DNA of 33,419 nucleotides from Pseudomonadota bacterium (GTDB lineage: Bacteria > Vulcanimicrobiota > Vulcanimicrobiia > Eremiobacterales > Eremiobacteraceae): the NCBI GenBank assembly GCA_021325335.1, contig JAJPHJ010000084.1, forward strand, positions 1-33,419, read 5' to 3'. How positions within the stretch are numbered: the stretch's first letter is position 1; the number at the start of each line of letters is the position of its first letter. Below, in pieces: positions 14,303 through 21,263 of this stretch. The translations under genes were made by a program, and so were the position numbers. The notes under the pieces are model-generated. The model had not been told where the DNA came from and searched no databases. It saw only the letters and a list, made by a program, of their open reading frames with translations.

Positions 14303-16228
14303 TTAGCCGATGCGGCGGGGGATGAGCTCGTTCGGTCTGAGCAGATTGCCGTCCAGCACGAAAGAGCTCGTGTGCAGGGTCCGTGCGGCCCGTTTGTAGC
14401 GAGAGACATTGGATGCGACCGCCGCGTACGAAGGCAATGGCGTCCTCGAACTGCGCAATCCGACGACCGTCAGCGTGACCTGACCGTCGCTTCGCGCACC
14501 GTTGCCCACGTCGATGAGTGGGAGCTCCCGGCTCACGTGCAAAGCGGCGACCTTGCGTTCGAAATCTCGGATGACCGCATCCGCGATCAGTTCGGCCTTG
14601 GCTTCCGAGCACAAGAGGATGAAGTTGACGCCGCCGAGGTGGCCCACGAGGGAATGCGCGCCGTCCAATGCCTTTGCGCTCGCCGCGAGCGTCTCGGCAA
14701 GCACGTTGATGATCTCATCGCCGCGGCCGAACCCGAAACGCTCGTTGTAGTGCCGCAAGTGATTGATGTCCACGTGCAGGAGGGCGAACGGTACGGTGCT
14801 CGTCGCGCGGCGTTCGATCTCTTGCTGCACGAGCATGCGCCCCGGCAGACCGGTGAGCGGATTGGAATAGCGCGACACCGAGGCTTGGAACTCGGTCATC
14901 GTGTGAAGCAGATCGCGCACCGAGACCACGCCGGCATAAGCGCCGTTCTCTAAGACCACGATTTCGTCGTACATCTCCGAGCGGCGCCGGTGCACGACCT
15001 TGCGCGCCACGTCGTCGATCGAATCGTTGATGTCCACCGCGAGGTACGCGTCGTCCATGACGAGACGCACCGGGCGTTTGGCATAGATCGAATAGCCGAA
15101 CTGGTGCGACAAGCGCTCGTAAAGCTTCGTGCGGCTGACCAGACCAAGCGGAACGCCGGCGTCGGTCAAGACCACGCTGTCGAGGTCGGGGTTGCGGTCG
15201 AAGATCTCCATGACTTCCATGGTGTATGCGCTCGGCGAGAGCGCGGGCGCGCGGCGCGTCACCGCGCTGACGGTCGTGCGCTTGGGCATGGGCGCGGTGC
15301 GGCTGGCCGAGGCGCGCTCGCGGATGAATGCGGCGATCTCGGGCTTCGGTTCGGCAAAGACAGAGGATGGCCGCGCGAGCAGGAACCCTTGGCCGTACTC
15401 CACGCCGATCTCGATGAGCGTGGCGAGCTCCTCTACGGTCTCGATGCCCTCTGCCAGCACCTTGGCGTCGATCCGGCGCGCAAAGATGATGATCGCCGAG
15501 ACGAGCGCGTTCTTCGCGCGGTCGCGGTCGATGTCGCGCACGAGCGCGATATCGAGCTTGATGAAGTGCGGCCGCACTTCCGTGACGGCACGGAGGCTGT
15601 TATGGCCCGCGCCGGCATCATCGATCGCGACCTTGAAGCCCTGGCGGTTGTAGTGCTGCAGCGTGCGCTTGAAGAGATCGAAGTCGTCGATGGCCTGCTT
15701 CTCGGTGATCTCCAAGACGATGCGGTCCTGGGCCAGCCGGTTTTGGTCGACGACGTCACGCGAGAGCGCCTCGTTGCGCTCCTCGAACACGCGTGGGCTG
15801 ATGTTGAGGAACAAATAGCAACCGGGCGGGATGCCCGAGGCGTTTGCGATGGCGCGGAATCGACAGATCCGCTCCAGCTGCGCGGCGACGCCCCGCTCGG
15901 CCGCCGTCGAGAAAAGCGCGTCTGCGCTTTCTAGGCGGGTACCGATGGGCCCGCGCGAGAGCGCTTCGTAGCCGAGAATGCTTCCGTCGGACAGCGAGAC
16001 GATGGGTTGGAAGAGCGTGCGTATGCGCCCCTCTTTGAGCAGACGGTCGAAATCGTCGCCGCCCGCTTCGGGAGTCTGGTTGAGCGGTTCGTCGACGACC
16101 GCCGTCTGCGGAGGCGAAGGGTCGCTTTGCATCGCTTCCAGTTCGGCGCCTTGAGGCAACGGCGCGGTGTCGCCTGTGACGAAACCTAACAGGCGCCGAA
16201 AGCGATAGTTAAAGGTAGGCGAACTCAT
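14303..16228 (-). CDS. EAL-CBS-GGDEF protein, probable c-di-GMP phosphodiesterase
   Basis: This 641-residue cytosolic protein has no signal or membrane segment. An EAL domain (about 60-310) keeps the metal and catalytic residues: EAL at 88-90, NISP, EITE, IDDAGAG, KLD, AEGIE and YGQGF. It should therefore hydrolyse c-di-GMP. A CBS pair follows (about 340-470; VMEIFDRNPDLDSVVL...GLVSRTKLYERL and the second unit ending GVVSVRDLL). The C-terminal GGDEF domain is degenerate: the signature reads GGVNF, so cyclase activity is unlikely and it may bind GTP as a regulator. ATG 16228 has GAGG six bases upstream; ATG 16240 is an alternative. It is divergent from the formate dehydrogenase operon (84 bases between). 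Confidence 0.9.
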   Translation of the reverse strand: MSSPTFNYRFRRLLGFVTGDTAPLPQGAELEAMQSDPSPPQTAVVDEPLNQTPEAGGDDFDRLLKEGRIRTLFQPIVSLSDGSILGYEALSRGPIGTRLESADALFSTAAERGVAAQLERICRFRAIANASGIPPGCYLFLNISPRVFEERNEALSRDVVDQNRLAQDRIVLEITEKQAIDDFDLFKRTLQHYNRQGFKVAIDDAGAGHNSLRAVTEVRPHFIKLDIALVRDIDRDRAKNALVSAIIIFARRIDAKVLAEGIETVEELATLIEIGVEYGQGFLLARPSSVFAEPKPEIAAFIRERASASRTAPMPKRTTVSAVTRRAPALSPSAYTMEVMEIFDRNPDLDSVVLTDAGVPLGLVSRTKLYERLSHQFGYSIYAKRPVRLVMDDAYLAVDINDSIDDVARKVVHRRRSEMYDEIVVLENGAYAGVVSVRDLLHTMTEFQASVSRYSNPLTGLPGRMLVQQEIERRATSTVPFALLHVDINHLRHYNERFGFGRGDEIINVLAETLAASAKALDGAHSLVGHLGGVNFILLCSEAKAELIADAVIRDFERKVAALHVSRELPLIDVGNGARSDGQVTLTVVGLRSSRTPLPSYAAVASNVSRYKRAARTLHTSSFVLDGNLLRPNELIPRRIG

Positions 16229-16312
16229 TGCGGGCCTCATTTTCTCATCGGCTTCCCCTCGGCATATGTGTAGCGCCGGGCCTTCCTCCCGCCGCCCTCC
16301 CGAACGCTCCAT

Positions 16313-18259
16313 ATGAAGGGCGGACCATCAGAATGCGAAACCCTCGACCGCATGAGCCACGATAAGGCGCGTTTGGAGCGGCCTTTGGTGCGCGACGGGG
16401 AGCGCCTCCGGGTTGCCTCGTGGGACGAGGCGCTCGACCGGGCCGCCGCCGGATTTGCCGCAGCCAAACGTATGGGCGGTCCAAACGCCTTCGGGTTGTT
16501 CAGCTGCTCCAAGACGACCAACGAGCTGAATTTTCTCTCGCAGAAATTTGCTCGCGTCGTGATGGGGTGCAACAACGTCGACAGCTGCAACCGCACCTGA
16601 CACGCTCCCAGCGTCGCCGGTCTGGCGGCGGTCTTCGGAGCCGGCGGGGGCACGAACTCGTATCAGGAGGTCGAACAGACCGACCTGATCATCTTATGGG
16701 GTTCGAATGCGCGCGAGACGCATCCGATCTTCTTCCATCACGTCCTGCGCGCCGTCCGCAATGGCGCTCGCTTGATCGTGGTGGATCCTCGCCGGACGGC
16801 GACCGCCGCCTGGGCCGATACCTGGCTCGGGCTGGACGTCGGCTCCGACATCGCGCTCTCCAACGGGATGGCGCACGAGATCCTCGAGCGCGGGCTCGAG
16901 CATCGCGAGTTCATCGAACATGCGACGATCGGTTTTGCAGAGTATCGCGCGTCGCTCGACTCGTACACCCCGCAGGTGGCCACGCGCATGACGGGCGTGC
17001 CCGCGAACGTCATCGGGGAGGTGGCGCGCGCGTATGCGCAAGCCGACAAGGCGCTGATCTGCTGGACGCTCGGGATAACCGAGCACCACAACGCGGTCGA
17101 CAATGTCTTCGCGCTCATCAACCTCGCGCTCTTGACCGGTAAAGTAGGACGGTACGGATGCGGTCTCAACCCGCTGCGCGGGCAGAACAACGTGCAGGGC
17201 GGCGGCGACATGGGCGCCATTCCCCACCATCTCCCGGGCTTCCAAGACATCACCGACGACGCGTTGCGCGCGAAATTCGAGCGCGCGTGGGGCGCGTCGA
17301 TCCCTGCGAAACGTGGCCTGCGGCTGAACGAGATGTTCGAAGCCATCGAGCGCGGCGAGCTGCGCGCGCTCTACGTCATCGGCGAGAATCCGCTCGTCTC
17401 CGAAGCGGACCGCAACCGCGCGTCACACCTGTTGGCCAGCGTCGAACACCTCGTCGTCCAAGACATCTTCCTCACGCAGACCGCGGAGCTCGCGGACGTC
17501 GTGCTCCCCGCTGCCGCCGGCTGGTGCGAGACCGAGGGCACGGTGACGAGCAGCGAACGCCGGGTCCAGCGCGTGCGCAAGCTGCTCGATCCGCCGGGCG
17601 AGGCGCGCGATGACCTCGAGATCGTCTGCGACATCGCCCGCCGTCTGGGCACGGATCTGGGGCGGCCGAGCGCGCAGCAAGTGTGGGATGAGCTCCGGAC
17701 GCTCAGCCCCATGCATGCCGGCATGTCGTACGCTCGACTTGAAGCGTGTTCGGGATTGCAGTGGCCCTGCTATGACGAACAGCACCCGGGGGAGCTCTTC
17801 TTGCACGCGCGCCTGTGGGAAGATCCGGTGCGCGGACCCAAAGCGCCCTTCCACGCGGTCGAGCAGGAAGATCCGGTCGACACGCTCTCCGACGAATATC
17901 CCATCCGCCTCACGACGGGCCGGCGGCTCGACTCGTTCAACTCCGGCGTGCAAAGCGGCCTCTATTCCTCACCGCTGCGGCGCGGAGAATCGTTCGACAT
18001 CGCTCCCGAAGACGCGGAGCGCTACGGTGTGGCCGAAGGGGAACGGGTGCGCGTGAGCTCGCGACGCGGCAGCGTGACGGTCCCGGTGCACGTGGATCCG
18101 GGCCTGCGACCGGGGTTGGCGTTCATGACCTTTCACTTCGACGACGTCGCGACCAACGTGCTCACGATCGAAGCGAACGATCCGAAATCGGGCACCGCGG
18201 AATTCAAAGCTTCCGCAGTGCGCCTGGAGAAACTCGAAAGCCCGATGCAGGTCTCTTGA
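16313..18259 (+). CDS. fdhA: Formate dehydrogenase catalytic subunit, C-terminal half, selenocysteine at in-frame UGA
   Basis: This is a 648-residue selenoprotein if the UGA at 16598-16600 is read as Sec (residue 96). The sequence around it, NNVDSCNRT-U-HAPSVAGL, matches the active site of formate dehydrogenases, where Sec (or Cys) ligates Mo/W and the next His is catalytic. Downstream are LTGKVGRYGCGLNPLRGQN, the molybdopterin-binding domain and the C-terminal dinucleotide-binding domain with FMTFHFDDVATNVLT. The N-terminal [4Fe-4S] domain normally fused here is absent; an in-frame stop at 16271 rules out an extension. That domain is encoded separately at 20109. ATG 16313 or 16352 could be the start. 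The enzyme oxidises formate to CO2 (or the reverse). It is first of a three-gene operon. Confidence 0.93.
16598..16630 (+). promoter_or_regulatory. Bacterial SECIS element with Sec UGA codon
   Basis: The UGA at 16598-16600 is followed by an 18-nt stretch and then a hairpin. CGTCGCC (16612-16618) pairs with GGCGGCG (16624-16630) around the loop GGTCT (16619-16623). The 18-nt distance from UGA to the loop and the GGUCU loop itself are those I know from E. coli fdhF, where the loop G and U contact SelB. This structure directs Sec insertion. Confidence 0.9.
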
Positions 18260-20116
18260 GTGGATCTTCATTTCACGGCCGATCGCGCGACGGCCGCCGA
18301 ACGCGCCGCGGTCGACGCGGTTCTCGGCGCACCGGCCTCGCGTTGGGAAGGCGCACCTCGTGTTGGCCAGGACGATCACGTGGCGGTCGGCGGAGACCAA
18401 GCGAGAGCGCAGCGCCATCGCCTGTTGCCGGCGCTGCATGGTCTCAGCGATCGCATCGGATGGATCTCTCCCGGCGCGCTCAACTACGTATGCGAGCGCT
18501 TGCGGGTTCCGCCGGCCGATGCTTATGGCGTTGCGAGCTTCTACGCGCTTTTTTCCACGACGCCGCGAGCGCCGCAGATCCTGCACGTGTGCGACGACAT
18601 CGCCTGCCGGCTGGCGGGTGCGGAAGAACTGTGCGCGCAGCTTGAGCAAAAGCTCGGTCCGCCGCACGAGCCGCTGCCGCAGCAGCAAAGCGCGTGTTGG
18701 ACGCGCAGCCCGTGCTTGGGGATGTGCGACCGCGCGCCCGCGGCGCTCTTCATCGCCGCCGACCCAGGCGGCTCGCCGCGCGGGGAGCCGCTCGGTGAGG
18801 TGGACCGCCCGCGCCTCGAGCAGGCATTGCTGTCCGAGGACCGCCCGCCGGCGCAGCCCGCACGCGCGACCGTGGCCGGCACGCAGCGCACGCTACTGCG
18901 CCGCATAGGCAAGATCGACCCCGAGAGCATCGGCGACTATCGAAAAGCCGGCGGGTTTACCGCGCTGCGGCGCGCGATCGAGATCGGACCTGCGGGGATC
19001 ATCCATGAAGTGGACGTCGCGAAACTCACAGGACGCGGCGGCGCCGCATTTCCCACCGCGCGCAAGTGGGAAGCAGTCGCGCGCGAACCCGCGCGTCCCC
19101 ACTATCTGATCTGCAACGCGGACGAGTCCGAGCCGGGGACGTTCAAAGACCGGGTCATCATGGAAGAAGATCCCTTCGCCGTGATCGAGGCGATGACGAT
19201 CGCAGCGATCGCCGGCGGATGCGAGCGCGGCTATCTGTACGTCCGCGGCGAGTACCCCCTCGCAAGCTCACGGCTGCAAAAAGCGATCGACGAGGCCCGC
19301 GCCGCCGGAATGCTCGGCGATGGCATCTGCGGTTCGCCGTTGCGTTTCGATATCGAGATGCGCCGCGGCGCCGGAGCGTATATCTGCGGCGAAGAGACAG
19401 CGCTGTTCAATTCGATCGAGGGTCTGCGCGGCGAGCCCCGCAACAAACCGCCGTTCCCCGTGCGCAAAGGCCTTTTCGGCAAGCCGACCATCGTGAACAA
19501 CGTCGAGACGCTTGCGAACGTGATCGAGATCGTGGCCAAGGGCGGCGAAGCCTTCGCTTCGGTCGGCACGCCGGGCTCGACCGGCACGAAGCTCTTCTGC
19601 CTGTGCGGCCACATCGCGCGCCCTGGCCTGTACGAGGTCCCCTTGGGCACGATGTTGGCCGAGCTGCTCGCGCTCGCCGGCGGCGTGCGTGGCGGCAAGC
19701 GTTTGCAGGCCGTTCTCCTCGGCGGCGCCGCCGGCTCGTTCCTCACGCCCGCAGAGATCGGCGTGCCGCTGTCCTTCGAGGGCGCACGGGCCATCGGCGC
19801 CACGCTCGGTTCCGGCGTCGTCATGGTCTTGGACGAAACGGCGGATCTCGGCGGGATCCTCGTGCGCATCGCCGCGTTCTTCCGCGACGAATCGTGCGGC
19901 CAATGCGTGCCGTGCCGGGTGGGCACCGTGCGGCAAGAGGAGCTGCTGCACCGCCTGCGGCGCGGGCGTCCGCTTGGTTCCGCGACGCAGGAACGCGATC
20001 TCCTCGCACAGATCGGACAGGTCATGCGCGACGCGTCGATCTGCGGCCTCGGGCAAACAGCATCGAGCGCGATCGAGTCGGCGCTCTCCAAGTTCGAGGT
20101 GTTCAACCGTGCCTGA
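18260..20116 (+). CDS. NuoE-NuoF fusion, diaphorase subunit of NAD-dependent formate dehydrogenase
   Basis: This 618-residue fusion corresponds to the FdsG and FdsB subunits of soluble NAD-formate dehydrogenases (NuoE and NuoF of complex I). Residues about 55-165 are the thioredoxin-like [2Fe-2S] domain, with C111-x4-C116 and C152-x3-C156. Residues about 215-618 are NuoF: FMN/NAD region GRGGAAFPTARKW (258-270), CNADESEPGTFKDR (285-298), GAGAYICGEETAL, and the [4Fe-4S] ligands C546, C549, C552 and C595. It passes electrons between FMN/NAD and the Fe-S chain. GTG 18260 abuts the preceding stop; the end overlaps the next gene by eight bases. The first about 50 residues are poorly conserved. Confidence 0.93.
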   Translation: MDLHFTADRATAAERAAVDAVLGAPASRWEGAPRVGQDDHVAVGGDQARAQRHRLLPALHGLSDRIGWISPGALNYVCERLRVPPADAYGVASFYALFSTTPRAPQILHVCDDIACRLAGAEELCAQLEQKLGPPHEPLPQQQSACWTRSPCLGMCDRAPAALFIAADPGGSPRGEPLGEVDRPRLEQALLSEDRPPAQPARATVAGTQRTLLRRIGKIDPESIGDYRKAGGFTALRRAIEIGPAGIIHEVDVAKLTGRGGAAFPTARKWEAVAREPARPHYLICNADESEPGTFKDRVIMEEDPFAVIEAMTIAAIAGGCERGYLYVRGEYPLASSRLQKAIDEARAAGMLGDGICGSPLRFDIEMRRGAGAYICGEETALFNSIEGLRGEPRNKPPFPVRKGLFGKPTIVNNVETLANVIEIVAKGGEAFASVGTPGSTGTKLFCLCGHIARPGLYEVPLGTMLAELLALAGGVRGGKRLQAVLLGGAAGSFLTPAEIGVPLSFEGARAIGATLGSGVVMVLDETADLGGILVRIAAFFRDESCGQCVPCRVGTVRQEELLHRLRRGRPLGSATQERDLLAQIGQVMRDASICGLGQTASSAIESALSKFEVFNRA

Positions 20117-21014
20117 CGTGACGATCGAGATCGACGGTAAGGCGGTGAGCGTGCCCGAGGGTGCGACCATCCTGGCCGCGTGCCGCGCGGCCGGTATCGA
20201 CACCCCCACGCTCTGCTATCTCGAAAACCTCACGCCCGTCAACGTGTGTCGCGTCTGCGTGGTGGAGCTGGAAGGCTCGCGCACGCTCGTTCCGTCGTGC
20301 TCGCGTCAGGCCGAGAGCGGCATGAAGGTCAAGACGGATTCCGCGCGCGTGCGGACGAGCCGGACGATGGTGCTTGAATTCCTCGCGTCTTCGGTGGACG
20401 TATCGCTCGCCGACGACCTGCAACGGCAGATGCGCCGTTACGGCGCGCAGCCGGGCCGGTACGGACCACCTGCGCCGCCTCCCAAAGCCGATCAGCGCGA
20501 TGCGAGCGTCGCAGGCCATCACGATCCACCGTCCGGCGACGCCGCGCACACCGTCGCGCAACCGGTGAAGCGCGACAACGAGCTGTACGTGCGCGACTAC
20601 ACGAAGTGCATTCTCTGCTACAAATGCGTCGAAGCCTGCGGCAGCGACGCGCAGAACACGTTCGCGATCGCGGTGGCCGGACGCGGCTTCGATGCGCGCA
20701 TCTCCACGGAACACGCCGTACCGCTGCCGGATTCGGCGTGCGTCTATTGCGGCAACTGCATCGGCGTCTGTCCGACGGGCGCGCTCATGTTCGTCACCGA
20801 GCACGATCGGCGCGCGCAGGGGACCTGGGATCCGTCGCGCCAGAACAAAGGCGAGACGATTTGCCCCTATTGCGGCGTGGGCTGCAATTTGGAAGTGTCG
20901 ACGCAGGACGGGGAGATCGTTAAGGTGATGTCACCGCTCGAAAGCGGCGTGACGAACGGCCATTTGTGCATCAAAGGCCGGTTCGGCTGGCAGTTCGTGG
21001 GCAAGAGACGCTAG
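20109..21014 (+). CDS. Formate dehydrogenase alpha, N-terminal Fe-S half (NuoG-like plus Mop [4Fe-4S] domain)
   Basis: This 301-residue protein equals the N-terminal third of a normal NAD-formate dehydrogenase alpha subunit. A [2Fe-2S] ferredoxin domain (Cys36, 47, 50, 64) is followed by a linker. Two [4Fe-4S] motifs come next (Cys167/170/173/177 and Cys211/214/217/221). Last is the [4Fe-4S] domain of molybdopterin oxidoreductases (Cys252/255/259/287), ending at LCIKGRFGWQFVGKRR. In fused homologues the sequence continues straight into the part encoded at 16313. The linker (about 90-155) lacks the Cys/His-rich cluster motif of full NuoG-like alpha subunits. GTG 20109 has GAGGTG eight bases upstream. 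It is the last gene of the operon and should form the electron wire to the NuoE-NuoF subunit. Confidence 0.93.
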   Translation: MPDVTIEIDGKAVSVPEGATILAACRAAGIDTPTLCYLENLTPVNVCRVCVVELEGSRTLVPSCSRQAESGMKVKTDSARVRTSRTMVLEFLASSVDVSLADDLQRQMRRYGAQPGRYGPPAPPPKADQRDASVAGHHDPPSGDAAHTVAQPVKRDNELYVRDYTKCILCYKCVEACGSDAQNTFAIAVAGRGFDARISTEHAVPLPDSACVYCGNCIGVCPTGALMFVTEHDRRAQGTWDPSRQNKGETICPYCGVGCNLEVSTQDGEIVKVMSPLESGVTNGHLCIKGRFGWQFVGKRR

Positions 21015-21020
21015 GGCCGG

Positions 21021-21263
21021 CTATTTGTTGAAATAGTCTGCGTTGATCTGCGTGAAGTTCTTCCATTCTTCGGGCACTTCGGTTTCATTGTAGATGGCAT
21101 TCACCGGGCACGCGGCCACGCAGGCGCCGCAGTCGATGCACACGCTGGGATCGATGTAGAGCTGGGGGTCCTCGTCGTTACCCTTGATGCAATCGACCGG
21201 GCACACGTCGATGCACGACTTGTCCTTGACGGTGATGCACGGCTGGGTTATAACGTAGGTCAT
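21021..21263 (-). CDS. fdxA: 7Fe ferredoxin FdxA
   Basis: This 80-residue electron carrier matches the 7Fe ([3Fe-4S][4Fe-4S]) ferredoxins of actinobacteria and Thermus. It begins MTYVITQPCITVKDKSC with the C-x7-C-x3-CP ligand set of the 3Fe cluster. It continues with CIDCGACVAACPVNAIY for the 4Fe cluster and ends with the typical WKNFTQINADYF tail. The start is ATG 21263. It converges on the formate dehydrogenase operon (6 bases between stops) and follows the CPBP protease gene by 35 bases. A role as partner of the dehydrogenase is possible but not shown, since the two genes are on opposite strands. Confidence 0.93.
   Translation of the reverse strand: MTYVITQPCITVKDKSCIDVCPVDCIKGNDEDPQLYIDPSVCIDCGACVAACPVNAIYNETEVPEEWKNFTQINADYFNK

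Follow-up and report, generated by a model that had tools for sequence, protein, structure and literature searches.

A conserved, split and permuted selenocysteine formate dehydrogenase encoded in an Eremiobacteraceae genome

Genes and selenocysteine codon of the operon

The window, i.e. the whole stretch of DNA analysed (33,419 nt of contig JAJPHJ010000084.1, assembly GCA_021325335.1), contains three consecutive genes on the same strand, termed here C-half, EF and N-half (Table 1). Pfam finds the Molybdopterin and Molydop_binding domains in C-half, and no Molybdop_Fe4S4 domain. EF carries the domains 2Fe-2S_thioredx (PF01257), Complex1_51K (PF01512), SLBB (PF10531) and NADH_4Fe-4S (PF10589) and also matches the NuoE and NuoF models of NCBIfam; the NuoE/NuoF-like diaphorase with its FMN/NAD module, as in NAD+-linked formate dehydrogenases of the FdsGBA type, is therefore present. 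N-half contains the Fer2_4, Fer4 and Molybdop_Fe4S4 domains. These coordinates and contents bear out the order given in a preliminary description of this DNA (catalytic C-half, NuoE-NuoF fusion, N-terminal Fe-S half), as well as its placing of the break between the Mo-proximal [4Fe-4S] domain and the Mo/Sec domain. The same description let C-half run from 16313 to 18259; the span holds and the frame is open from 16313, but the ATG at 16352 (MSHDKARLERPLV) is more likely to be the homologous start, since relatives start about 5 residues ahead of the motif RLxxPLVR.

Table 1. Coordinates of the operon's features within the window
Feature	Coordinates	Strand	Evidence
C-half: bis-MGD/Sec catalytic subunit, FdhA minus N-terminal Fe-S part	16352..18259	+	PF00384 + PF01568
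In-frame UGA read as selenocysteine (U96, SCNRTUHAPSVAGL)	16598..16600	+	TGA in 80/80 best relatives
SECIS upper stem-loop, loop GGUCU (16619-16623), 18 nt past UGA	16613..16629	+	alignment
EF: NuoE-NuoF (FdsG-FdsB-like) fusion, FMN/NAD diaphorase subunit	18260..20116	+	Pfam, NCBIfam
N-half: NuoG/HoxU-like Fe-S part plus Mo-proximal [4Fe-4S] domain	20109..21014	+	PF13510, PF04879
Molybdop_Fe4S4 domain, end of N-half	20853..20999	+	PF04879, 63.6 bits

EF begins directly after the stop of C-half (18259/18260) and its end overlaps the start of N-half by 8 nt, junctions that look like those of a coupled operon. Upstream lies a divergent gene (14303-16240, minus strand) with EAL/CBS/GGDEF-like sequence, and a neighbour of this kind is likewise found upstream in the relatives from the window's own family that were read (L037, L039-L042, L045). 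A small gene for a two-cluster ferredoxin (21021-21263, minus strand) is convergent with N-half.

C-half has a single in-frame TGA. The residue that it specifies, U96, aligns with the selenocysteine of E. coli FdhF (numbered Sec140), and the loop of the SECIS element and its spacing presumably agree with those of E. coli fdhF. The element was recognised from the alignment; scanning the window against Rfam with gathering thresholds returned one tRNA only. All 6 bp of the stem are formed in 101 of the 101 sequences compared, and one of the pairs varies between C-G, U-G and U-A without ever being broken. selA, selB and a tRNA-Sec are present in the genome, all found on one contig. Since the SECIS stem pairs in every sequence and these three genes accompany it, everything expected of a bacterial selenoprotein is found here, and the in-frame TGA genuinely encodes selenocysteine. 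The tRNA-Sec matches have identical scores on two contigs (C18:1-94 and C111:31043-31136), perhaps an assembly duplicate.

Tiling of the two halves on one alpha subunit

On the NCBIfam model of the formate dehydrogenase alpha subunit (TIGR01591, 672 positions), N-half covers positions 1-49 and C-half positions 49-671, the latter scoring 673.1 bits against a cut-off of 666.25. On R. capsulatus FdsA (6tg9), residues 25-302 are matched by N-half and residues 307-936 by C-half. The halves thus tile one alpha subunit without a gap, as had been proposed from the sequence. The accompanying assertion that nothing is missing is right for the tiling but not for the clusters, as N-half lacks the N5-type His/Cys [4Fe-4S] motif of FdsA and NuoG. 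The corresponding stretch (about residues 95-155; window 20391-20573) is variable, with a Pro/His-rich insert in some members.

The Mo-bisMGD domains, with the Sec/Cys-His pair and the catalytic Arg that characterise TIGR01591 proteins, are all in C-half, where U96, H97, R289 and also Q291 are conserved in the alignments of relatives. The N-terminal [4Fe-4S] domain, which such proteins carry in the same chain, is located on the separate N-half; the NuoG-like Fe-S part is also present, but apart from the alpha chain, unlike in FdsGBA-type enzymes. Sixteen cysteines of N-half are invariant in 72/72 sequences, a number that would suffice for one [2Fe-2S] and three [4Fe-4S] clusters. In its Fe4S4 domain, C252, C255, C259, C287 and K289 are invariant in alignments of 16 and of 32 sequences, K289 presumably occupying the position of FdhF Lys44. 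AF2 models, each predicted alone, reached a pLDDT of 87 for C-half and 80 for N-half. When compared by Foldseek with the FdsA/FDH1 chains 6tg9_A, 9ktl_A and 7vw6_A, the C-half model gave query-normalised TM scores of 0.91-0.92 and the N-half model 0.72-0.75 (0.73 with FdsA); each half is predicted to fold by itself onto the same FdsA chain.

Spread, descent and genomic setting

Among 80 relatives, C-half was found in 29 (61-78% identity), with the order C-EF-N wherever the contig was long enough; the order is kept in ∼20 relatives across two families. The preliminary description had proposed a synteny search as a check. A motif-based scan of 84,980 species genomes identified at least 589 that encode relatives, of which the best 80 (64-74% identity) were read: the three genes stand in order in 62 of them, some with a cut N-half, while the remaining loci are truncated at contig ends or interrupted by insertions of ∼1-10 kb, mostly in Chloroflexota. 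The full order occurs in nine named phyla (Chloroflexota, Acidobacteriota, Actinomycetota, Vulcanimicrobiota [Eremiobacterota], Dormiibacterota, Rokuibacteriota, Planctomycetota, Gemmatimonadota and Spirochaetota). These labels come mostly from MAGs and are unsure where only one record represents a phylum; one member, Aquisphaera insulae, is a named strain. N-half is held by 12 of 13 genomes searched whole, which were chosen mostly because N did not adjoin C. Since the same order and the TGA recur in relatives, the split arrangement is not due to chance, and the permuted gene order read in the window is real. The split is the standard layout of an enzyme family across about nine bacterial phyla, not an accident of one genome.

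In Chloroflexota, other genes spanning ∼1-10 kb often stand between C-half and EF-N (L071, L075, L083, L098, L101, L102, L105, L106, L112, L139). A gene resembling selD lies on the upstream side of C in L071, and another at the edge of locus L101.

In 16 outgroup loci, which derive from the same phylum and from plasmids, a single ORF encodes both the Fe4S4 and the Mo domains; these loci are 36-44% identical to C-half, and NAD-linked outgroup loci mostly have the arrangement EF-[N-C]. The plasmid collection yielded only matches of <60% identity, and those read were fused formate dehydrogenases. In separate phylogenies of the two halves, another check proposed at the outset, a single branch separates the split group from the rest in each of the two unrooted trees (SH-aLRT 100 and 99, with a long stem). 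The distances of C, EF and N correlate (Mantel r 0.54-0.64, p 0.0005, 72 loci), a result that does not tell interaction from shared descent. A fused selenocysteine enzyme (L173, genome G114) appeared as the sister of the split group, weakly (support 43, long branch), and was not used. A single origin followed by wide spread, including horizontal transfer, is the simplest reading. That fission came first, rather than fusion, is argued only from the fused relatives and is not proven, the trees being unrooted. Tandem duplication of an EF-[N-C] unit, with subsequent loss of the outer parts, could have given rise to the C-EF-N order.

A full-length fdhA elsewhere in the genome, which the preliminary description had named as the finding that would speak against a two-part alpha subunit, was sought and not found: no second formate dehydrogenase alpha subunit was detected in the genome (94% complete, 149 contigs), whose sole other PF00384 protein is a NuoG-like fragment, truncated by the end of its contig, with no Sec or Cys at the active site. 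NuoG is represented in this genome by two fragments at contig ends (C71 and C146), the protein on C146 being the one without Cys/Sec at the active site. With regard to cofactor genes, moaA is present; MobA matches fall under the family cut-off, which was passed by only 1 of 14 control genomes. FdhD (PF02634) was detected neither in the window's genome nor in any other of the 10 split-enzyme genomes of its family (G000, the window's own, and G001-G003, G005, G006, G008-G010 and G012; 81-97% complete), but it was present in 20 of 20 such genomes of the sister family, often directly after N-half. The window's genome and family are thus found without the FdhD/FdsC maturation chaperone that goes with FdsGBA-type enzymes, a protein described as essential for formate dehydrogenase maturation in E. 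coli and R. capsulatus (PMC6239281). The 10:20 contrast does not represent ten independent events since the absence is probably due to one loss. Activity as a formate dehydrogenase is less sure in the window's lineage because fdhD was not found there: either another sulfur donor operates in this family, or the enzyme is independent of FdhD, or it is inactive as a formate dehydrogenase there.

Interpretation and known counterparts

The products of the three genes very probably form one cytoplasmic formate dehydrogenase of the FdsGBA kind, NAD+-linked and selenocysteine-containing, the alpha subunit of which consists of two chains assembling in trans. By homology, its metal would be molybdenum or tungsten. 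Formate would be oxidised at the Mo/Sec centre of C-half, from which electrons would cross the new subunit interface, where the halves would dock, to the Mo-proximal [4Fe-4S] cluster of N-half; from there they would pass through the other N-half clusters to the Fe-S centres and FMN of EF, and finally to NAD+.

The best surviving alternative, which is nevertheless improbable, is that the operon encodes two machines, with C-half acting by itself or together with a different partner, and EF and N-half forming a HoxEFU-like NADH diaphorase that serves something else. EF-N does follow the order HoxE-F-U, N-half matches models of HoxU and of [FeFe]-hydrogenase, and the C gene stands apart from EF-N in some Chloroflexota and in a myxobacterium. 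However, the last domain of N-half is Molybdop_Fe4S4 with its pterin-side Lys, which would be useless to a plain diaphorase, and it is exactly this domain that is missing from C-half. Furthermore, N is retained in genomes holding C, the order is conserved, and the subunits of FDH3 of Actinomycetospora chiangmaiensis are reported to be co-induced (PMC7176365). A gene fission or assembly artefact of this genome, leaving a broken enzyme, is scarcely credible: although the assembly is fragmented (149 contigs) and fdhD is absent from the family, dozens of loci from many phyla share the split point, the gene order, the TGA and the active-site residues, which refutes a one-genome event. Equally far-fetched is a rejoining of the halves into one alpha chain after translation, by a split intein or ligation. 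The two new termini do coincide on the parent chain, but N-half continues past CIKGRFG only as a brief variable tail and C-half has just a few residues ahead of RLxxPLVR, which leaves no space for intein halves.

Trans-assembly thus stands as the preferred reading, and the operon as a conserved, split and permuted selenocysteine formate dehydrogenase. A bolder extension, which seems rather unlikely, is that placing the Mo-proximal cluster on the diaphorase side makes the Mo/Sec subunit separable, able to mature or be exchanged on its own, and that the enzyme of the window's family dispenses with the FdhD sulfurtransferase, otherwise regarded as necessary for such enzymes. Among the solved structures of formate dehydrogenases that were matched, a single polypeptide contains both the Mo-adjacent cluster and the molybdenum domains. 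If true, a natural trans-assembled version would mean that this tight Mo/cluster unit can be divided, and would account for many puzzling annotations of a short FdhA beside an orphan Fe-S protein. It could also offer a two-part scaffold for CO2/formate enzymes, with a Mo/Sec half matured, swapped or labelled alone. Because the split family is frequent among uncultured phyla of soil and subsurface, it bears on formate use there; in the lineage without fdhD, the supply of the active-site sulfido ligand becomes a directly testable question. Beyond the preliminary description lies the breadth of the finding, as the split characterises a family present in many phyla rather than being the oddity of one genome.

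The guess that similar splits might already be catalogued in actinobacteria finds a match in the subunit sizes of A. chiangmaiensis FDH3, which a 2020 paper calls a cytoplasmic, NAD+-dependent enzyme and which consists of a selenocysteine-containing alpha subunit (FdhA3, 640 aa), a beta subunit (FdhB3, 614 aa) and a gamma subunit (FdhC3, 316 aa) (PMC7176365). It resembles the window's operon in these sizes and, apparently, in gene order, and is on that footing a candidate member of the split family; the sizes fit this family and not a canonical FdsGBA. All three proteins were seen by proteomics, increased 2.2-3.1 fold on 2-hydroxyisobutyrate; formate removal was selenium-dependent, with formate accumulating in the absence of selenite, but it is not assignable to FDH3 alone because FDH1, another selenocysteine enzyme of this bacterium, was also expressed (PMC7176365). 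The available part of that paper's main text carries no remark that the gamma subunit is the missing N-terminal part of alpha. A planctomycete selenocysteine fdhA in an operon with nuoEF was likewise described without a word on a split (PMC4807772). Literature searches for a split formate dehydrogenase, including two separate genes and Dormibacter, found no report. A split selenocysteine formate dehydrogenase is therefore probably on record, unremarked, as FDH3: glimpsed in one actinobacterium and apparently never described as a split enzyme.

Among known systems, the DMSO-reductase-family catalytic subunit of formylmethanofuran dehydrogenase is likewise divided between genes (FwdB/FwdD), but there it is the C-terminal pterin-binding domain that is separate, while the Fe4S4 domain stays with FwdB. 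HylCBA-FdhA (FdhF2) of Clostridium acidurici is similar in that its Fe-S/diaphorase subunits are encoded apart from the catalytic subunit, which, unlike C-half, is described with its own [4Fe-4S] domain (PMC5736913). FdhF of E. coli (1aa6) and of HDCR (7qv7), among the best matches of C-half, share the active-site motif and the fdhF-like SECIS, but have the Fe4S4 domain in the same chain and no fused NuoEFG-like modules. FdsGBA (R. capsulatus, 6tg9; R. aestuarii, 9ktl) has the same modules as the window's enzyme (NuoE-, NuoF- and NuoG-like, Mo-proximal [4Fe-4S] and bis-MGD), and differs from it in having alpha in one chain, Cys in place of Sec, the gene order G-B-A and an N5-type cluster.
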